From the NCBI GenBank assembly GCA_029862005.1, contig JAOTYD010000001.1:1-64000 (forward strand): a stretch of 64,000 nt of DNA, written 5' to 3'. A program made the translations under genes and the position numbers. Under the pieces are notes generated by a model. It worked only from the letters and a program-made list of their open reading frames with translations. It did not search any database and was not told the DNA's origin. Below, piece by piece: positions 3,695-58,439 of the stretch. The first letter of the stretch is position 1. Each line of letters starts with the position of its first letter. The DNA comes from Gammaproteobacteria bacterium (GTDB lineage: Bacteria > Pseudomonadota > Gammaproteobacteria > GCA-001735895).

Positions 3695-4687
3695 ATGCCC
3701 ACCTTACAAAAGCCTGTTGCCTCGCCGTTTCTTGCCTCCGTGTCTGATTATATGGCGGTGCGTCGCTATAGCAAACGCACGATCAAATCATATCTCTACT
3801 GGATCAGGTATTTTATCGTGCACCACGGTATGCGCCACCCGTCTGAAATAGGTTCGAAGGAGATTGAGCAATTCCTGACCTATCTCGCGGTGGAACGGGA
3901 GGTTTCCATTGCCACTCAGAAAATTGCGCTGAATGCGTTGGCTTTCCTGTACAACCGGGTGCTTGAAAACCCGTTGGGGGAACTGGGCAATTTCAATCGC
4001 GCCAGGCGTCAGCGCAATCTCCCGGTTGTGTTAACCCGGCTCGAGATCGCTCAGTTGCTGCAACACCTGTCAGGCACGGCCCTGTTGATTGCGTCGCTGC
4101 TCTATGGCTCGGGCTTACGCCGTACCGAAGCGGTTAGGCTAAGAGTCAAGGATATCGATTTGGAGCGCCACCAGTTACAGGTGTGGAATGGCAAGGGATA
4201 CCATAACCGTTTGACCACGCTGGCACCTGAACTGGTGCCACCGTTGCGAAGCCAGATCGAAAGGGTGCGCCTGTACCTGCAGGAAGACAGCCGGCATGCG
4301 CACTATGCGGGTGTCTGGATGCCGGATGCGCTGGCGCGAAAATATTCCGCAGCGGCCAAAACCCTGGGGTGGCAGTACCTGTTCCCGTCTCCGCGCCTGG
4401 CGCTAGACTCGCACAGCAGTTTACTCCGGCGTCACCATCTCCATGAGGCCAACATCAATCGGTCAATCCGGCAGGCGGCGCGCCAGGCACGCATCGACAA
4501 GCACGTCACCAGCCATGCCCTGCGGCACTCGTTTGCCACCCACCTGCTCGAAGCGGGCGCCGACATCCGCACCGTGCAGGAGCAGCTGGGCCATCGGGAT
4601 GTCAAGACGACCGAGATCTATACCCATGTGCTTAAACGCGGCGCACGTGGAGTGCGTAGCCCGTTAAGCGATTTGAATAAAACGTGA
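3695..4687 (+). CDS. intI: Integron integrase (tyrosine recombinase)
   Basis: A site-specific recombinase that inserts and excises cassettes at attI/attC. Numbered from ATG 3695 (330 residues, normal for IntI), the catalytic set is complete: Arg142 (GSGLRRTE), Lys167 (GKGYHNR), His274 and Arg277 (SHALRHSF), His300 (LGHRD) and Tyr309 (EIYTHV). The extra helix that separates IntI from XerC/D is present around residues 201-245 (VWMPDALARKY, then SSLLRRHHLH). The frame is open upstream to a TTG at 3638, but ATG 3695 has an AAGGA about 10 bases before it and gives the family length. It is divergent from the cassettes, the standard integron layout. Nothing suggests inactivation. Confidence 0.95.
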   Translation: MPTLQKPVASPFLASVSDYMAVRRYSKRTIKSYLYWIRYFIVHHGMRHPSEIGSKEIEQFLTYLAVEREVSIATQKIALNALAFLYNRVLENPLGELGNFNRARRQRNLPVVLTRLEIAQLLQHLSGTALLIASLLYGSGLRRTEAVRLRVKDIDLERHQLQVWNGKGYHNRLTTLAPELVPPLRSQIERVRLYLQEDSRHAHYAGVWMPDALARKYSAAAKTLGWQYLFPSPRLALDSHSSLLRRHHLHEANINRSIRQAARQARIDKHVTSHALRHSFATHLLEAGADIRTVQEQLGHRDVKTTEIYTHVLKRGARGVRSPLSDLNKT

Positions 4688-4712
4688 TGGATTGGCACGG
4701 CACCGCTATAAT
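4684..4712 (+). promoter_or_regulatory. Sigma-70-like promoter for the esterase gene
   Basis: GTGATG (4684-4689), 17-bp spacer, consensus TATAAT (4707-4712), about 30 bases before the ATG at 4742. The -35 is weak and overlaps the integrase stop codon. Confidence 0.5.
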
Positions 4713-4741
4713 CCGGCCTTGGTTTTTGAGCGAGATCCGTA

Positions 4742-5410
4742 ATGGCTGACGAATCCCTGGTAATTGACACCGGCGTGCACGCGCCTGATGCCTGCGTCAT
4801 CTGGTTGCATGGCCTCGGCGCCGATGGTCACGATTTTGAGCCCATCGTGCCTGAACTGCGTCTCGACCCCGGCCTCAACATCCGCTTCGTTTTTCCGCAC
4901 GCGCCGATGATGCCGGTCACCATCAACCAGGGTTTCGTGATGCGCGCCTGGTTTGATATCGGTACTGCAGACATCAGCGCCGAGGTCGACGAGAAGGGTA
5001 TTCGTGCATCTGCCAACCTGGTCGATAAGCTCATCGATGCCGAAATTGCCAGTGGCATTGCACCTGAGCGCATCGTGCTTGCCGGTTTCTCGCAGGGTGG
5101 CGCCATTGTATTACACGCCGGCCTGCGTTACGGCAAGCAACTTGCCGGTATTATCGCTTTATCGAGTTTCCTGCCGCTCGCGGAAACACTGGAGCGCGAA
5201 AAGTCCAAGGTCAATGCAGGCCTTCCAATTCTGCTGGCGCATGGATCGGCTGACCCCGTGGTGCCGGTTGTCCTCGCTTACGAGACCCGTGGCGAGCTTG
5301 AAAAGCACGGTTACGCGGTTGAATGGCATGAGTACAAGGGCATGGCACACAGCGTTTCGGAACAGGAAATCTTCCATCTCGCCGAGTGGCTTGAACAGAG
5401 AATTATATAA
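4742..5410 (+). CDS. Alpha/beta-hydrolase, carboxylesterase/lysophospholipase type
   Basis: A 222-residue serine hydrolase of the phospholipase/carboxylesterase family (YpfH/EstB-like), which hydrolyses short acyl esters or lysophospholipids in the cytoplasm. Visible features are the oxyanion-hole HGLGADGHDF near the start, nucleophile Ser in GFSQGG, acid Asp in HGSADPVVP and catalytic His in KGMAHSV, all with standard spacing and full length. It lies just after the integron and has its own consensus -10 box. It converges on argH with only two bases between stop codons. The natural substrate cannot be told from sequence. Confidence 0.9.
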   Translation: MADESLVIDTGVHAPDACVIWLHGLGADGHDFEPIVPELRLDPGLNIRFVFPHAPMMPVTINQGFVMRAWFDIGTADISAEVDEKGIRASANLVDKLIDAEIASGIAPERIVLAGFSQGGAIVLHAGLRYGKQLAGIIALSSFLPLAETLEREKSKVNAGLPILLAHGSADPVVPVVLAYETRGELEKHGYAVEWHEYKGMAHSVSEQEIFHLAEWLEQRII

Positions 5411-50646: not shown

Positions 50647-50941
50647 CGCTGACGTCGATCGATCCGGGTCCAGAATTGTGGCGATTGCCATCACCCCGCT
50701 GCCGCTATCAATACTGCTGTCACTGGTCGCCTGTAGTGCGGGTCAGCAGCGTCCGATCCCGGTGGACAGGCCACAGACTGCATGCGTCGATCCGCGTCCG
50801 CAGATATGTACCATGGATTACACCCCCGTCTGCGCCGAACTCAGAAGTGGTGAATTGAAAACCTATTCCAACGCCTGCTCGGCCTGTGCTGACGCATACG
50901 TGGTTTCATATCGCCTAGATCCTTGTGTTGCTGAGTCGTAG
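50639..50941 (+). CDS. Small lipoprotein with Kazal-like domain
   Basis: About 100 residues. A hydrophobic segment ending LSLVAC gives a lipobox. The mature part has six cysteines in the pattern [19 protein letters not shown] ... [11 protein letters not shown] ... YRLDPC, which fits a Kazal-type serine-protease-inhibitor fold. The start is uncertain: TTG 50639 overlaps the glmS stop, ATG 50600 lies inside glmS, and GTG 50678 would leave a signal with no positive charge. Its 3' end overlaps copA tail to tail by 27 bases. It may inhibit or bind proteases at the cell surface. Confidence 0.7.
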
Positions 50942-53347
50942 TGCATTGCCGATAACTGACACCGAGCTCAAGCTCATCGCGGCGGCGGCAATCATGGGCG
51001 ATAATAACAACCCGAATATCGGGTACAACACGCCGGCGGCGACGGGAACGCCCATCGAGTTGTAAATAAATGCGAAGAACAGGTTCTGGCGGATATTTCG
51101 CATCGTCGCCCTGCTCAGGCGCTGCGCCCGCACGATACCGCGCAGGTCACCCTTGACCAGGGTGACACCCGCGCTTTCCATCGCAACATCGGTACCGGTA
51201 CCCATGGCGATGCCGACATGGGATTGTGCCAGGGCCGGGGCATCGTTGATGCCGTCGCCGGCCATCGCAACAATGCGCCCCTCTGCCTGTAACTTTTTGA
51301 TGACCTCTACCTTTTGCTCTGGTGAAACCTCGGCTTCGATACGATCGATACCAAGCGGGCCGGCGATCGCGTTGGCGGTGGTCACGTTATCCCCGGTCAG
51401 CATGACGATATCAATCCCTCCTGCGTGCAGGTCAAGTATCGCCTCCGGGGTTGATGCCTTGACGGGGTCGGCCACGCTGAGCAGTCCGGCGGCTATGCTA
51501 TCGATAGCAACGTACATGACGGTCTGTCCCTGGTTACGGCCGGTCTCGGCAATTGAGGGTAAATTTCCGGAATCGATCGAAAGGGATTGCAGCAACTTCA
51601 AATTACCCAGTGCAATCTGGTGTTCTCCGACGCTGCCAGTGACGCCCTCGCCCGTCATCGAAACAAAGTTTGCAACCGTTTTGAGATCGATATTCCGATC
51701 CCTGGCGCCTTCAACAATGGCCGTCGCCAACGGATGTTCGCTGGCGCGCTCGAGACTCGCTGCGAGCTGTAGCACGATGTTTTCGTCATAACCATCGCCG
51801 GGATGTACCGATACCAGCCGTGGCTTACCCTCGGTCAGGGTGCCGGTTTTATCCACCACCAGCGTATCGACTTTCTCCATGACTTCGAGTGCTTCGGCGT
51901 TCTTGATCAATACACCCATGGTGGCACCTTTGCCGGTGCCTACCATGATCGACATGGGTGTGGCGAGGCCCAGCGCACAGGGGCAGGCGATAATGAGAAC
52001 CGCAACCGAGTTGATGATGGCATACGCGAGTCGGGGTTCGGGACCGACCAGTCCCCAGGCGATCAGGGTAATGACCGCAACCGCTACCACGGCTGGTACG
52101 AAATACCCGGCCACGACGTCGGCCAGTTTTTGTATCGGAGCACGTGAGCGCTGTGCCTCGCTGACCATTGTCACAATTTGTGCGAGCAAGGTTTCGGCAC
52201 CCACTCTTTCTGCCTGCATCAACAGGCTGCCGGTGCCATTAACAGTTGCGCCAATCACGACGTCACCCGCAACTTTCTCTACCGGGATCGGTTCGCCGGT
52301 AACCATGGACTCATCCACGGCGCTGTTGCCGCTGCTGACAATGCCGTCTACGGGTATCTTTTCCCCGGGCCTGACGCGCAGTATGTTCCCGGGTTTGACA
52401 AGGTCCAGGGCGATATCTTCTTCGTTTCCGTCTGCATGCACGATGCGGGCGGTGTTTGGAGCGAGCCCCAACAGCAACTTGAGCGCGGCGTTGGTATGGC
52501 TGCGCGCGCGTAACTCAAGCACCTGGCCGAGTAGTACCAGGGTTGTGATGACGGCGGCCGCTTCGAAATAAACCGGAATCGTGCCGTCGCCGTGCAGCAT
52601 ATCAGCCGGGAAAATACCGGGTAACAACAATGCAACCACGCTGTAACTCCAGGCAACGCCGACACCAATCGCGATCAGCGTAAACATGTTGAGATTCCGG
52701 GTCCGCAGCGACAGCCAGCCGCGCTGAAAAAAAGGCCAGCCACACCACAGCACAACCGGGGTTGCGAGTACGAACTGGATCCATTGCGCTGTCTTCATCG
52801 ACAGGCCCGGTGGCAATAAAGCCGGTGCGAGGTCGGCGATCATCGCCAGCACAAAAACCGGCAAGGCGAGCGACAGGCCGATCCAGAAACGCCGGCTCAT
52901 GTCGATCAGCTCTTCATTCTTCTCTTCGATCTCGATCGTGCGGGATTCCAGAGCCATGCCACATTTGGGGCAACTGCCGGGATGGTCCTGTACGATCTCG
53001 GGGTGCATCGGGCAGGTATATTCAATTCGCGTGGACCGCAACGGGGTGCCTGCCGGTTCCAGCGCCATGCCGCATATCGGGCAGCTACCGGGGTGATCCT
53101 GTTCGATTTCAGGATCCATCGGACAAATGTATAAACTCGCATCGGCAACCGGATCAGTGACAGCAGGCCTGTCCGGGTTCAGATAGAAATTCGGGTCGTT
53201 ACTGAATTTTTGTGCACAGCCCTGGCAACAGAAAAAATAATCAGTGCCTTTATACTGAACCGAGAATTCGCTTTCGGTTGACACTTTCATACCGCAAACC
53301 GGATCGTACAAATCGGTTGAAATATGATTTTCGGCGGTGCCTTGCAT
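50915..53347 (-). CDS. copA: Copper-exporting P1B-type ATPase
   Basis: About 810 residues from ATG 53347 (GAGA upstream); a GTG at 53410 would add an odd hydrophobic N-terminus. N-terminal YHS domain ([19 protein letters not shown]), then two heavy-metal-binding repeats ([20 protein letters not shown] and [20 protein letters not shown]), then eight membrane helices with CPC in [23 protein letters not shown], phosphorylated Asp in [11 protein letters not shown], and [10 protein letters not shown]. These identify a soft-metal exporter, most likely Cu(I) or Ag(I). Classical HMA domains with CxxC are absent; the YHS and repeat modules take their place. Confidence 0.93.
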
Positions 53348-53494
53348 CGGTTTCTCAAGATTTGAAGGAGCAATGAAATAGATTATAAAGCCTGTAGTAA
53401 CTACCGACACAAGGATAAAGATCCACGCTTATGCTGTGGTCGCGTCGTAGCTGTTCGATTGAACGGTACATCGAAATCGGTGTTGTTCCAGTCC

Positions 53495-53520
53495 AAAAAA
53501 AAACCCCGCCGAAGCGGGGT
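53495..53520 (-). terminator. Rho-independent terminator after the VWA-lipoprotein gene
   Basis: On the minus strand: ACCCCGC, loop TTCG, GCGGGGT, then nine T. A seven-pair GC-rich stem with a stable tetraloop, about 58 bases past the stop codon at 53578. Confidence 0.88.
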
Positions 53521-53577: not shown

Positions 53578-54249
53578 TTATTTGACGTTATAGATAAATT
53601 CCTGGATCTTGGTCGCGTCAATCAACGTGTTCCAGCTTCTTGCACCAGAATCAACGATTCGCTGGTTCCATTTTTTAATACGCTTACGGTAGACTTCCGG
53701 ATTGGCGCTGTCGTCGGTGAGCTTGATGACATTCATGGCAGCGATGTCGATGCCGTCAAATTCATCCTCGGCAAATTTTCGGACCACACCCGACGGCAGT
53801 TCCTCTTTCATATCGCTAAAGACGAACATCACCTGGGTACCGGATTTGGTCGCTTTTAGATAATCAGAGCAAAGCATTAAAGCGCCACTGATATCGGTAA
53901 GTCGGGACTTGGCATTACCCCTGCCAAATTTGTCCAGTGTTTTTGCAATTGCCAGTTTTTGAGTGTTGGCTTTTGTGGGCCTGTAATCCAGGGTCAGTTT
54001 TGTCACCAGATTTTCTTCCGCGTAGCTGTTACTGTCGATCTTGACCAAGAACAGGCTATCGCCAGGAATCATTTCGGGTACGATGCCGGCCTTGATGATA
54101 TTGGCCACGTTTGCCTTCTCACCGGCGTAAGTGCCGGATATATCCATCAATGCACAGAATGATGTTTCATATTCTTTACTGTCGGTGCAGGCTGAAACAA
54201 CGACTGATACCGATAGCGCGAGCAGAATACGGGTGATTATTTTTTCCAT
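53578..54249 (-). CDS. VWA-like lipoprotein of an uncharacterised envelope cluster
   Basis: 223 residues. A lipoprotein signal ends in VVSAC (Cys about 21). The mature part looks like a von Willebrand A fold: MIDAS-like DxSxT in FCALMDISGTYAGEK near the start of the domain, a middle Thr/Asp segment LTDISGALMLCSDYL, and VMFVFSDMKEELPSG as the third metal strand. Metal-dependent protein binding in the periplasm is therefore likely. It is the last gene before a strong terminator and 14 bases after the coiled-coil membrane protein, so the two are cotranscribed. Function unknown. Confidence 0.8.
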   Translation of the reverse strand: MEKIITRILLALSVSVVVSACTDSKEYETSFCALMDISGTYAGEKANVANIIKAGIVPEMIPGDSLFLVKIDSNSYAEENLVTKLTLDYRPTKANTQKLAIAKTLDKFGRGNAKSRLTDISGALMLCSDYLKATKSGTQVMFVFSDMKEELPSGVVRKFAEDEFDGIDIAAMNVIKLTDDSANPEVYRKRIKKWNQRIVDSGARSWNTLIDATKIQEFIYNVK

Positions 54250-54263
54250 TGTATTCTCCCAGC

Positions 54264-55664
54264 TTAGCTTGCGCTGACATGTTTCCCGCTAATCAGATTA
54301 GCGATCTGCACGGGGATAATGATGTAGATGTCAAACACGTGCACCAATATATTAAAGAATCCCTCGATTAGATAAGCGATCATGTTAGCCAGATGGCAGA
54401 GCAAGGTGATGAATACGGTATACATCTTGGCGAATGCATGTTGGCTGGCCTCGATAAACATTTCCAGTGGTATCGCGATTACCGCCAGAATCCATGGCAG
54501 CACAAAGCCGAGCATTGCTTGTCCAATCACAGTAATTCTTGAGTTGATTTCATCGGAAACCGTCGCCGATCCTCCGGCCAGGCTGATATCAAGAGCGTTT
54601 TTGGCTTCTGCCAGGTTTTCCCGCAGGATCGCGAGCGACGCTTCTACCGTAGACAGAAACAAAAGCCCCAGCAGACAACCAAATAATATGATTTTACGCT
54701 TGGCCCGAGTCATATTGGCAATCTGGGGAAAGGTGTGGGTTACCCCTATTGCTTCAAATAGAAATATGCCTAAAACCAGTTCCAACGCGACAATAACCAG
54801 TGCGGAGATTTCTGATACTGCCATTCCGGCGACGCGAACTCCGGCAGGTACCAGTTCGGACATCGGCAGCGCTATCAGGTTAAAGTTGATAAAAGCGCCA
54901 ACCAGGCCCACACAGATGACGATCAGTGAGATGATAAAAAGCTTGGTCACCTTTGAGGAGAGCATATCGATCGATTCGGGTTCAGCGGCCGAAATTTTTT
55001 CGTATTGAGTCATATATTTTTCAATATTACGGCTGTTTTCGGTCACCTTATCGACCTGACTACTGATCTCCTTGCCCAGTTTTTCAACCCGTTTCCAGAT
55101 CGGTGCCATCGATCCCAGTATCTTGTGGCGTTTTGCTGAAACCTCGCGAAGTTCAGACAGGGCTTTCTTTTCTCCCTCAACCGCAGATTTATGAATTTCA
55201 CCCAACATACCTTCGATAATTCGGTCAGAGGTCGAACCCTTTACCTTGGCGATACTCTTGACGACTTCACTCCATCCGGGTGCTTCGGGTGTGACCTGCC
55301 CACACTCGTTATAATCGGCCTCAAGCTGGCTGATTTTTTCGTCGAGTTTTAATTGTAATTTGGGGTAACCGGCAAGACTTTTGGTATTCGCCATATCGAT
55401 TTTGGAAAATTCCTGAAGAATTTCGCCCTGAATTTTGGCAACCCCGGATTCCAGCAGGACTTTTCTATCCTTCTCGCGCATGGCCTCGGCCGTATTTTTG
55501 GTCCATTCGGCCAATTTTCTCAGGCCGCCGGCGGTTGCATCAGAAAAAGTCTGGATCATTTTATGCACGGGTTCCCTGGCAAAAAACAGGAAAATCATGC
55601 TAGCTGCTATCCAGACTGCGATTGAAACACCAGGCATTTCTGGCAAAAAGTAAAAACTCTTCAT
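54264..55664 (-). CDS. Coiled-coil multi-pass membrane protein, unrecognised
   Basis: 466 residues. One membrane helix near the start (about 14-31), then a long charged helical/coiled-coil region (about 40-235; for example KLDEKISQLEADYNE and KLGKEISSQVDKVTENSRN), then about five or six membrane segments from residue 243 to 460. No known transporter or enzyme motif is seen. The layout suggests a structural or signalling membrane protein that could work with the VWA-like lipoprotein encoded 14 bases downstream. I do not recognise the family. Confidence 0.8.
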   Translation of the reverse strand: MKSFYFLPEMPGVSIAVWIAASMIFLFFAREPVHKMIQTFSDATAGGLRKLAEWTKNTAEAMREKDRKVLLESGVAKIQGEILQEFSKIDMANTKSLAGYPKLQLKLDEKISQLEADYNECGQVTPEAPGWSEVVKSIAKVKGSTSDRIIEGMLGEIHKSAVEGEKKALSELREVSAKRHKILGSMAPIWKRVEKLGKEISSQVDKVTENSRNIEKYMTQYEKISAAEPESIDMLSSKVTKLFIISLIVICVGLVGAFINFNLIALPMSELVPAGVRVAGMAVSEISALVIVALELVLGIFLFEAIGVTHTFPQIANMTRAKRKIILFGCLLGLLFLSTVEASLAILRENLAEAKNALDISLAGGSATVSDEINSRITVIGQAMLGFVLPWILAVIAIPLEMFIEASQHAFAKMYTVFITLLCHLANMIAYLIEGFFNILVHVFDIYIIIPVQIANLISGKHVSAS

Positions 55665-55728
55665 GGTGAGCTTCCTAATTTAATCTATGTTCGTGAGTAA
55701 TAGAGAATAGATGCCTTTTGAAGGAATG

Positions 55729-55917
55729 CTATTCGTTGTTGGCAATCGAAAGTGCGTAATGCTTCAATTTCGGACTTTTTGTCGCCGAAAAATAGTGCAA
55801 CAAGAATGCCTTTCTAGCCCTGCTCCAGCCATGCTTTTTCGCGACAATCCCGCTATTCCAGAGGGCTACGGTAATGCCGGGAACCGTTGACCAGGCCTTG
55901 ATAATTTTTGTAAACAT
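55729..55917 (-). CDS. Small 62-residue hypothetical protein
   Basis: A short basic protein opening MFTKIIKAWSTVPGITVAL with an amphipathic or membrane-touching helix, then a basic segment (VAKKHGWSRARKAFLLHYF). GAGG lies eight bases before the ATG, supporting translation. It is 64 bases upstream of the coiled-coil membrane protein gene, probably in the same transcript. Nothing similar comes to mind. Confidence 0.55.
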   Translation of the reverse strand: MFTKIIKAWSTVPGITVALWNSGIVAKKHGWSRARKAFLLHYFSATKSPKLKHYALSIANNE

Positions 55918-55959
55918 GGGATTAACCTCAGTTTTACTAAATGTATGAAGACTTTAGGC

Positions 55960-56079
55960 AGGCGCTGTGAAAAATCGGTGAAAAACATGAAAAAAAGGCT
56001 ATAAATTTCTGCAAGGCGCTGTTTTATTTCGAAATATTTCGCATTCTGAGGCGCCACACAGCAGCCCTTGCAGGCGCCT
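55960..56079. promoter_or_regulatory. Repeated AGGCGC boxes in a divergent control region
   Basis: The hexamer AGGCGC occurs at 55960, 56014, 56049 and 56072, the first pair extended as AGGCGCTGT and the second as AGGCGCC. All lie in the 207 bases between the small-protein gene (minus strand) and the response-regulator gene (plus strand). This suggests operator sites for the neighbouring regulator; no promoter boxes could be fixed with confidence. Confidence 0.4.
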
Positions 56080-56124
56080 ATTATAGTTGAAATCTATGTT
56101 TAAAAAGCTTTACTGGACGCGCTG

Positions 56125-56928
56125 ATGGCGGCTATTTTCTGGGTCGAAGATCAATCGCACTGGATCAAGAAGTTTTCTCCCGTGCTCGAAAACGAGGACT
56201 TTGACGGTAAGCCGAATTCGCTCGCAATTTATAATTTTGCCGAGGCCGCGCGGCAAAAGATTGCATTGACCGATAAGGAATCTCCGCCGGATGTGGCGCT
56301 GCTTGATGCGCGCATGAACGGCAATGACCAGGCCGGCTTTTCCGTTTCCAACGCGTTACGCAAGAAGTGGCCGCAATTGCCGATAATTTACCTGTCGGAG
56401 CACAGCGGTACCGAGATCGAGCGTGAAGCGCTGGAGCAGTTTTCCGCCACCGATTTTATTGCCAAACATCAAAACAATGTCGAGCAGGTTTTGTGCTGGC
56501 GTATCAAGGCAGTACTCAGGCAAGCGTCGATCGATACCGATTTATCATCGACGTTAAATATAATCAGCAGCGGCGAGCTGACGATCGATTTGAATACCTG
56601 GAATGTCTACTGGAAGGGTCAGCGTTTGATGAATCCGAGCAACGCCAAGCGTCCACTGGCACCAACGCCGAGGAAATTGTTGCGTGAGCTGATGGAGTCA
56701 TCTCCCAGGCCGCTGACTGCCGGACAGATTGCCGAACGGCTCGATATGGACCCCGAAAAGTTTTCCTACGCCAGTTACCGCCAGCATATCAAGACGCTGC
56801 GGCGGGCTTTCGATGCGGTTGAGGACGGGACTGCCAGTTTCAGCGAGCTATGTAACCAGGGCCAGGGCATTGTCACTTTCGGCGATGAAGGGGCTTACTA
56901 CTGGAAACCGCCTGGCAACAAAAAATGA
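56125..56928 (+). CDS. Response regulator with atypical receiver and winged helix
   Basis: 267 residues. The receiver (about 1-130) opens IFWVEDQSHWIKKF and has candidate phosphoacceptor Asp near 60 in VALLDARMNG, but the usual Lys region reads TDFIAKHQ. The C-terminal domain (about 145-260) looks like an OmpR-type winged helix: ELTIDLNTWNVYWKGQ, LAPTPRKLLRELMES, RLDMDPEKFSYASYRQHIKTLRRAF and GQGIVTFGDEGAYYW. It is coupled to the kinase by a four-base overlap. It likely controls the divergent envelope genes through the repeats between them. Confidence 0.82.
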   Translation: MAAIFWVEDQSHWIKKFSPVLENEDFDGKPNSLAIYNFAEAARQKIALTDKESPPDVALLDARMNGNDQAGFSVSNALRKKWPQLPIIYLSEHSGTEIEREALEQFSATDFIAKHQNNVEQVLCWRIKAVLRQASIDTDLSSTLNIISSGELTIDLNTWNVYWKGQRLMNPSNAKRPLAPTPRKLLRELMESSPRPLTAGQIAERLDMDPEKFSYASYRQHIKTLRRAFDAVEDGTASFSELCNQGQGIVTFGDEGAYYWKPPGNKK

Positions 56929-58439
56929 AACCCGCTCGAGTTTATTATCCATGGCCTAGCACCCTGGCGGCACTGGCGGTTATCACCTGGCAATTCCTGC
57001 TGGCCAATGCCGCACTGTTCACGGAGCATCCCCTGCCTGAATCCATGCGCCAGCAGGACAGGCTGTTGATCGCGGGCGCGGTACTGGTGCTATTGATGAC
57101 TTTTGACGCCTGGCGCTTTCTGAAGGCAAGTGCCCGCTGCAAGGAACAATTAAGGCAGCACCAGGACCAGATCAGCGAACTGTTTGATTCCAAGCGCGAA
57201 CTCGGCACGCGCGCGCGCACCTACTCCGATCATGCGGACAAGTTGAAAATGTTCATCAGTGAACGGTTGCTCGAATATATCGAGTACGATGAAAAGTATT
57301 TGCACTTCAAAAATATTGCCTCCGAGGTGCGCCACAATGGTGTCATCAGTTATGACAAGGCGCAGACGGCGCTTAAGCATGCCCAGCTTACCTGTGAAGT
57401 AGGCGAGCAACAGCAATATCGTGAAGCTGCAGACGGTCTGCTTTATCTATGGGATTTGCTCGATCTGTCCACTACCGACAACATTACACTACATGTTGCA
57501 AACCAGATTTACGACTGCGAAGAACATTATTTTCAGGCGTTATTGAACGACGACGCAACCGAGCCCACGCCCTTTCAGCCTACCTTCATGATGAGCCACG
57601 CGCTGCGACGCGCGTTACTCCCTATTACCGATAATCCTGACCAGCTTGGATTGAACAACGGGTGGCCGAAGCGCGGCAGTTACCGCGATGAAAAATTCAA
57701 GATCCTGTTGCAGGCTGATAGCGAAATGCTCGGTAATGAAAACCACATGGTGTTGCTGATCGAGAACCTGCTCAACAACGCGCTTTTCTATGCGCAGCAG
57801 AAAGCTTACAAGAATCGCTACAGCAGCGTTTCGATACGCCTGGCACAACGTGGCGGTGAAGTGGTACTGGAAGTCTATAACCGGGGTCCGAGAATCAACG
57901 ATGACGAAAAAGACAAGATCTATCAGCTCGGTTTTTCATCGCGGCGTATCCGCGAACATCACGGCAAGGGTCTTGGACTGTATTTTGTCAATGAAATCAC
58001 CAAGGGCTTTGAAGGCTCGATCGTGTTTAACAATATCGACAATCGGGAAGACAGTATTTCGCTCAGCATCAAGCTGGTCAACGGCGAAATTCATAAGGAA
58101 CAGCTTGAGATCGTCGAGGTAGATGGCAGGCCGATGTGTCGGCTCACGGGGTCGGAAGACAAGCATGCCAGACGTAATGAATGGTCATACGCTGCTCCGA
58201 TTGCAAGCATAGAAATCAGTCCGGGCGCGGTAAAAAAACCACAGGTTATCTCCGGGTTGAAGAGTGGCGAGGATAGCAGCTACTTAGATGCAACCGATTC
58301 ATTGCTGCCGCGCTGGGTGCTCGACGTCAAAAATCGCAAGCGCTCAGCGAAGCTGGTATTTATGCCGCTCGACGTGCGCGGTGTCGAGTTTGTAGCGCGC
58401 GTCCCCACCGCCAAATCAAGACTGGATAATCAGGACTAA
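56925..58439 (+). CDS. Atypical membrane histidine kinase-like protein
   Basis: 504 residues. Two N-terminal membrane helices (about 10-30 and 46-62), then a long helical region with a possible phosphoacceptor His (FKNIASEVRHNGVIS, about 130-145), not a standard HisKA box. The GHKL ATPase fold is recognisable by N-box ENLLNNALFYA (about 279) and GKGLGLYFVNEI (about 347), but the D-x-G-x-G box reads YNRGPRIN. A C-terminal extension of about 130 residues (VDGRPMCRL ... VLDVKNRKRS) is unusual. It belongs with the regulator before it. Whether it phosphorylates is not certain. Confidence 0.8.
   Translation: MKPARVYYPWPSTLAALAVITWQFLLANAALFTEHPLPESMRQQDRLLIAGAVLVLLMTFDAWRFLKASARCKEQLRQHQDQISELFDSKRELGTRARTYSDHADKLKMFISERLLEYIEYDEKYLHFKNIASEVRHNGVISYDKAQTALKHAQLTCEVGEQQQYREAADGLLYLWDLLDLSTTDNITLHVANQIYDCEEHYFQALLNDDATEPTPFQPTFMMSHALRRALLPITDNPDQLGLNNGWPKRGSYRDEKFKILLQADSEMLGNENHMVLLIENLLNNALFYAQQKAYKNRYSSVSIRLAQRGGEVVLEVYNRGPRINDDEKDKIYQLGFSSRRIREHHGKGLGLYFVNEITKGFEGSIVFNNIDNREDSISLSIKLVNGEIHKEQLEIVEVDGRPMCRLTGSEDKHARRNEWSYAAPIASIEISPGAVKKPQVISGLKSGEDSSYLDATDSLLPRWVLDVKNRKRSAKLVFMPLDVRGVEFVARVPTAKSRLDNQD

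Follow-up and report, generated by a model that had tools for sequence, protein, structure and literature searches.

Two-component regulators of the OmpR/PhoB type combine a receiver with a winged helix; one of them, PhoP of Mycobacterium tuberculosis, is reported to act at direct repeats of 7 bp spaced by 4 bp (PMC4832192). In class II pho promoters the repeats are followed by a -10 hexamer at 10 bp. In the proteobacterial dedicated sortase system (PdsR, TIGR03787; PdsS, TIGR03785), a two-component pair stands beside a target protein with a von Willebrand factor A (VWA) domain (TIGR03788), and VWA domains with a metal ion-dependent adhesion site (MIDAS) occur in bacterial adhesin or cofactor proteins such as Bd0875 (PMC11003981) and ViaA (PMC3893208). 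Here we describe a locus that resembles these systems in several respects, at positions 53,578 to 58,439 of a 64,000-nucleotide stretch of gammaproteobacterial DNA (contig JAOTYD010000001.1, positions 1 to 64,000; hereafter the window), in which a response regulator and a histidine kinase are encoded opposite a coiled-coil membrane protein (CCM) and a VWA lipoprotein. The analysis suggests a two-component-activated envelope module, a reading whose chances we judge to be evenly balanced.

The conserved unit is the gene pair for CCM, a 466-residue inner-membrane protein (54264–55664, minus strand), and the 223-residue VWA lipoprotein (53578–54249, minus strand). A scan of genome contigs found 465 CCM relatives, and the 80 loci kept for analysis span the Gamma-, Beta- and Deltaproteobacteria, the Nitrospirota and the Myxococcota. 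In all 80 of these loci a VWA gene on the same strand lies directly 3' of CCM, often with a 4-bp overlap; CCM homologues were present in 36 of 95 relatives, and the exceptions in the wider range were two genomes without a recognised VWA gene after CCM (G212 and G372) and one in which the pair is broken (G098). When loci are compared two by two, the identity values of CCM and of VWA go together (r of 0.91–0.92 over 75 loci), a correlation that is partly shared phylogeny and that fits co-inheritance of the two genes. A cultivable strain, Thiohalophilus thiocyanatoxydans DSM 16326, is among the carriers of the pair. CCM is interrupted by stops or frameshifts in two genomes of the f90 family (L269, G098:C7; L268, G106:C24), indicating that the pair can be lost.

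An earlier note on this DNA, made from the sequence alone, had proposed a candidate undescribed envelope system, which the pairing in the kept loci bears out and extends to many species. It had described five genes with a divergent layout; the pair is conserved and the layout is usual, but the unit comprises two genes, the regulator pair being present at 13 of the 80 kept loci. No description of the effector pair was found in the family libraries and the open-access literature searched (without subscription journals, and with AlphaFold DB outside the scope), and it may carry a name elsewhere. The pair occurs in hundreds of environmental genomes from several phyla, yet CCM is covered by no family model searched.

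Where the regulator is present, a specific DNA element accompanies the pair. The genes for the response regulator (56125–56928, plus strand, 267 residues) and the histidine kinase (56925–58439, plus strand, 504 residues) overlap by ATGA, and a 207-bp divergent region separates them from the effector genes. Comparison of 21 regulator-to-effector intergenic regions gave one constant element, TTTTCAC-N4-TTTTCAC in the effector direction, with an outer repeat that is less strictly kept at the most distant loci. In the window it reads TTTTCAC-CGAT-TTTTCAC (55967–55984, minus strand), a direct repeat with an 11-bp period of which 0.01 occurrences are expected in the window by chance, and the -10 hexamer of the effector promoter, TAAAGT (55951–55956, minus strand), lies 10 bp from it. 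Within the genus, the box usually stands 48–50 bp upstream of the start codon of the first effector gene. A strict form of the box (GTGAAAA-N4-GTGA) precedes CCM at all 13 loci with a linked regulator, one of which needed a check as its CCM gene is split, versus 0 of 67 others; at one locus (L122) the regulator pair lies downstream of the VWA gene, yet the box still precedes CCM. When 35 promoters were aligned on the box, an offset of 10 bp gave 4.29 of 6 matches to TATAAT, compared with 2.6 or less at other offsets, so that a candidate tandem direct-repeat operator near -35, as is typical of OmpR/PhoB regulators, is present at the sequence level in these promoters. The repeats have the geometry reported for PhoP, and a spacing of 10 bp between repeat and -10 hexamer is that of class II pho promoters and by analogy fits class II activation. 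The box was first spotted by eye in these promoters; only once it had been defined were loci lacking the regulator compared, whole genomes searched and the SecP sites described below examined. These results indicate a strong association, in sequence, between regulator, operator and target. The four AGGCGC boxes to which the earlier note had drawn attention are indeed present, at 55960, 56014, 56049 and 56072, but relatives that share the layout have lost them or have them at scattered positions, and the window contains 60 copies of AGGCGC where 53 are expected; it is not conserved, and hence is not the operator. The conserved direct repeat with its -10 hexamer had gone unnoticed in that note.

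The box also defines a small regulon. The exact box occurs at two sites in the 4-Mb genome, and a search for the box with the -10 hexamer, 3 mismatches being allowed, returned the same two sites only. The second site (G000:C26:38141-38172; L173, about 4614-5200) lies before the gene for an unlinked secreted protein, SecP, a small protein of 140–165 residues with a signal peptide and with no convincing match in Pfam. Among the 30 genus genomes searched, the exact box was found in 21 of 21 kinase-positive and 0 of 8 kinase-negative genomes, and in the remaining one (G022, 66% complete) the box was present and the kinase was not found. At the sites away from the module, 19 of 21 stretches encode SecP, starting 50–60 bp downstream of the box and at differing genomic locations. 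Within the genus, SecP itself was found in 19 of 22 genomes with the kinase versus 1 of 9 without it (hypergeometric test, one-sided, P about 2e-4, calculated by hand and ignoring relatedness). One operator and two promoters make the function testable, as the regulator, its DNA site and a secreted partner can now be named.

Two further genes were observed near these sites. A gene for a DUF2238 (PF09997) membrane protein is divergent to SecP at the second site (G000:C26, L173); such genes adjoin SecP or the box in several genus genomes (L173, L208, L221) and CCM in two f90-family genomes (L266, L268). DUF2238 is a possible third partner, and was not adopted as a claimed one because the cases of adjacency are too few. 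In addition, inspection by eye showed a CvpA-like gene in two genomes, close to an extra box in G013 (L214, G013:C139) and close to SecP in G003 (L209).

The lipoprotein carries the lipobox VSAC with Cys21, invariant in 52 of 52 aligned members, and a MIDAS formed by D36-x-S38-x-T40, T118 and D146, conserved in 51, 50, 51, 51 and 52 of these members, respectively, so that both the lipobox and the MIDAS-like DxSxT read in the single sequence hold across the family. Its match to Pfam VWA_2 is under the cut-off of that family; the AlphaFold2 model has a mean predicted local distance difference test score (pLDDT) of 92.4 and matches solved VWA domains with a Foldseek probability of 1.0, and the predicted VWA fold is accordingly secure. 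That the lipoprotein binds a putative partner is plausible.

CCM can be described as multi-pass, as had been proposed, because the 466-residue protein shows five clear hydrophobic peaks and weaker ones toward the C-terminus. The family-averaged hydropathy comprises one N-terminal transmembrane segment, a helical stretch some 200 residues long and then further transmembrane peaks, and the distribution of positive residues assigns the helical stretch to the cytoplasm. Invariant over 60 aligned sequences are E295, E304, E341, E401, R30, D117, W131, R179 and H180, the four glutamates lying in or beside membrane helices. No convincing family match was obtained in Pfam, NCBIfam or the sequences of the PDB: weak Pfam matches (COG6_N, DUF7341, Duo1, Prominin) were judged to be coiled-coil or compositional noise, and weak sequence matches to an angiotensin receptor (E 0.006) and to stathmin were judged to be chance. 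The search of the CCM model against PDB structures gave generic coiled-coil matches only, none at E 0.001 or better.

The invariant acidic residues in or next to the membrane helices, together with a lipid-anchored VWA partner whose MIDAS is intact, could suggest that CCM and the lipoprotein form an ion- or solute-conducting complex, in which the VWA protein would be auxiliary, like alpha2-delta of calcium channels, and the kinase would set the amount of the complex. The VWA model does match alpha2-delta, but it does so among many other VWA structures and the match is generic, and CCM resembles no channel or transporter in sequence or, at the threshold given above, in fold. We regard a conducting complex as an unlikely alternative to the envelope module.

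The regulator reads, as the earlier note had it, as a receiver joined to a predicted winged helix like that of OmpR/PhoB: its receiver (Pfam Response_reg, 5e-10) conserves the residues needed for phosphorylation (E8, D9, D61, S91 and K114), the phospho-Asp, the Lys and the acidic pocket among them, and its output domain matches HTH_20 (27.2 bits, above the cut-off of 27) and Trans_reg_C (6e-5; 23.5 bits, below the cut-off of 26.2). The kinase is partly atypical. It has two transmembrane helices (about 12–30 and 46–66) with a periplasmic loop of about 15 residues, an HATPase_c domain (2.4e-13, 50.9 bits) with the N box ENLLNNA, the G1 box VYNRGP and the G2 box GKGLGL, and a C-terminal extension of about 110 residues. 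Its H box, IASEVRHN, places Ser (S133) or Ala at the position of the histidine in the SHELRTP register, whereas H137, four residues on, is invariant, as are H103 and H127, in 13 aligned kinases; the canonical H box SHExRTPL with its phospho-histidine is not found, and the region matched no HisKA-type Pfam family and no family of dimerisation and histidine phosphotransfer domains. The altered H box thus stands as described, but the replacement of Asp by Asn in G1 is probably ordinary: the N-x-G variant is common in working kinases such as CusS, and the G1 box is therefore not read as degenerate.

Kinase homologues were found in 25 of the 95 relatives, and all of these also encode CCM and/or VWA (24 with CCM, and G016 with VWA at a contig edge), whereas many CCM–VWA carriers lack the kinase. 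The distribution of the regulator is thus nested within that of the pair and, with the box confined to regulator-linked loci, the regulator is specifically tied to the effector module. Regulators were also found outside the genus (G059, G092, L110, L129), as was a kinase, in G085, whose gene lies about 6 kb from the CCM–VWA pair.

A kinase almost without a periplasmic domain, belonging to a regulator pair that never occurs without CCM or VWA in these relatives, might take its signal from the effectors themselves. CCM and the lipoprotein would then also be the sensor, reporting to the short-looped kinase and feeding back on the promoter that drives them, an arrangement like that of BceAB-type transporters with BceS-type kinases. 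However, one regulator–kinase lineage in the genus serves two effector types, type A (that of the window) and type B, which are only about 30% identical and occur beside the same regulator. A tight interface between kinase and CCM is therefore less likely, and we consider a sensory role of the effectors quite improbable relative to an envelope module under the control of the kinase.

The two effector types have been exchanged repeatedly. In G009 the regulator is 97.8% identical to that of the window, but CCM is of type B. On the regulator–kinase tree the type changes 7 times, of which at least 4 changes are forced by well-supported branches; the distribution of the types is no more clustered than that of shuffled labels, and a tree holding type A together is rejected (approximately unbiased test, p-AU 7e-57). 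Some rows of this tree are contig-edge fragments and most of the genomes are metagenome-assembled genomes (MAGs) or symbiont assemblies, so that mis-binning could have added changes.

Probable traces of the exchange are visible at both ends of the operon. SML (55729–55917, minus strand, 62 residues) occurs in a subset of the type-A loci beside the regulator and starts at the position of the type-B CCM start in sister loci; its first 20 codons (55858–55917) align with that gene, the encoded residues agreeing at 45% with the type-B CCM N-terminus (E 0.07 in the window, 0.003 in the best copy), and beyond them the sequences diverge, a relation that the earlier note had not noticed. At the other end, in L045 (L045:8640-9206), an intact type-A pair and its terminator are followed by a decayed type-B CCM (residues 219–276) joined to a type-B VWA (93–199), with 57–81% identity to type B of sister genomes. 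These sequences are most simply read as the insertion of type A into an operon of type B, downstream of the regulated promoter, with both old ends left in place. SML is probably the retained start of the displaced CCM. Conservation within the group extends to its 3' part, and its ratio of nonsynonymous to synonymous substitution (dN/dS) is 0.2–0.7; it is probably still translated and, being under purifying selection, may have been retained because it couples translation or has a role of its own. The 62-residue reading frame is thus real, whereas its proposed status as an independent component of the module is disfavoured by the match of its first codons to type-B CCM starts. Repeated exchange beside one regulator is a natural experiment in which the capture of new effectors by existing regulatory wiring can be studied.

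Alternation of the types 4–7 times, unclustered on the tree, and the decayed type-B piece are also what might be expected if CCM and VWA were a surface or target component in conflict with phages, bacteriocins or competitors, two versions being kept by diversifying selection. Against this, the pair is conserved in many lineages, no relative of either protein was found in phage records, plasmid records or viral contigs, and among the PADLOC defence families VWA had no match and CCM only one to LmuB at E 0.019, which is not convincing. A defence system, or a phage or plasmid origin, is thus without support in these searches, and a role in conflict is very unlikely. Finally, that unrelated regulator and effector pairs are chance neighbours sharing a divergent region is close to refuted, since the kinase is strictly nested in pair carriers, the box is confined to carriers of the regulator and is found again at an unlinked regulon member, even though most CCM–VWA pairs lack the regulator and the kinase of G085 lies at a distance from its pair.

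In the envelope module that we favour, the kinase would sense a condition of the envelope or membrane by means of its pair of membrane helices and the very short loop that joins them in the periplasm, and phosphotransfer, probably via the shifted invariant His137, would activate the regulator. The regulator would then bind TTTTCAC-N4-TTTTCAC head-to-tail and recruit polymerase to the -10 hexamer 10 bp downstream, in a PhoB-like class II activation rather than a repression, so that SML, CCM and VWA as well as the unlinked SecP would be switched on. CCM would span the inner membrane, with its helical arm in the cytoplasm and with conserved loops, all short, in the periplasm, and the lipid-anchored VWA would dock through its MIDAS metal on CCM or on an envelope ligand, the complex stabilising or monitoring the envelope. 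The lipobox of all aligned VWA members, the signal peptide of SecP and the positive-inside topology of CCM all fit an envelope location. Of the stimulus-switched envelope complex suggested in the earlier note, a dedicated regulator tied to the module is borne out by the sequences, whereas the signal, the phosphotransfer, the activation, the contact between CCM and VWA and the task of the complex are parts that we infer.

Several observations weigh against this proposal. The canonical phospho-histidine is missing by motif register, and kinase activity is therefore not assured. Most pair carriers are without such a regulator; two-component control is therefore an add-on that says little about the core function. 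The CCM model is of moderate confidence (pLDDT 77, predicted template modelling score 0.53) and has no structural match. In addition, the genes outside the pair vary (fliA-cheBDR, M23-bactofilin, secDF and others), each context being limited to one lineage, and they point to no consistent pathway; the attempt to derive the function of the pair from its neighbours was dropped for this reason. A more far-reaching view, which we hold only tentatively and think rather doubtful, is that the pair represents a categorically new and widespread two-gene envelope machine, diverged versions of which have been plugged in behind a fixed regulator and promoter, with the start of the old gene surviving as a small protein, the phospho-acceptor of the kinase shifted by one helical turn and a regulon of two promoters.

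Among the variable neighbours, fliA and/or cheR-cheD-cheB lie near the pair at seven loci from Ectothiorhodospiraceae-like, Chromatiales and other gammaproteobacteria (L087, L116, L118, L107, L095, L099, L071), a proximity that may reflect either lineage synteny or a link to motility. M23-peptidase-like and bactofilin-like genes, identified by eye, follow the pair in some Desulfobacterota and related MAGs (L106, L113, L117, L130). The window itself is chromosomal, with gidAB, parAB, the atp operon and glmUS on its left side, and the relatives of its genome include the Olavius algarvensis Gamma 3 symbiont. The effector operon is closed by an intrinsic terminator (53503–53520, minus strand) with a 7-bp stem (6 GC), a 4-nt loop and 8 T. 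Next to the operon, at 50915–53410, lies the gene for a P-ATPase of the copper type, which has an N-terminus resembling YHS and carries two [23 protein letters not shown] repeats. As for the gene layout given in the earlier note, all five open reading frames were re-found with the same strands and lengths, together with the coupling of the regulator and kinase genes, the divergent region and the strong terminator.

Compared with known OmpR/PhoB systems, the locus differs in the box TTTTCAC, in having two target promoters only, in the non-standard H box of the kinase and in its unfamiliar effector genes. The dedicated sortase system provides the best NCBIfam match of the regulator, PdsR, and TIGR03788 weakly matches 7 of 52 VWA members. 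However, the VWA protein is here a lipoprotein, and assignment to that system was rejected on scores far under the cut-offs (PdsR, 48 versus 335.7 bits; PdsS, 39.7 versus 612.2 bits); the gene lists that were read showed no sortase-like reading frame next to the pair, no search aimed at sortases having been made. The kinase resembles the intramembrane-sensing kinases BceS and LiaS in its two transmembrane helices and very short extracytoplasmic loop, and differs from them in its H box and effector, in its Gram-negative host and in having no ABC transporter partner. Unlike Bd0875 and ViaA, with which it shares a VWA domain with MIDAS, the lipoprotein is lipid-anchored and nearly always paired with CCM, and to our knowledge there is no homology to them beyond that domain. 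The likeness to the calcium-channel alpha2-delta protein, a lipid-anchored MIDAS VWA protein next to a polytopic membrane protein, is an analogy only, CCM having no detectable channel homology. The mode of regulation is of a kind already known; the effector pair may be new.

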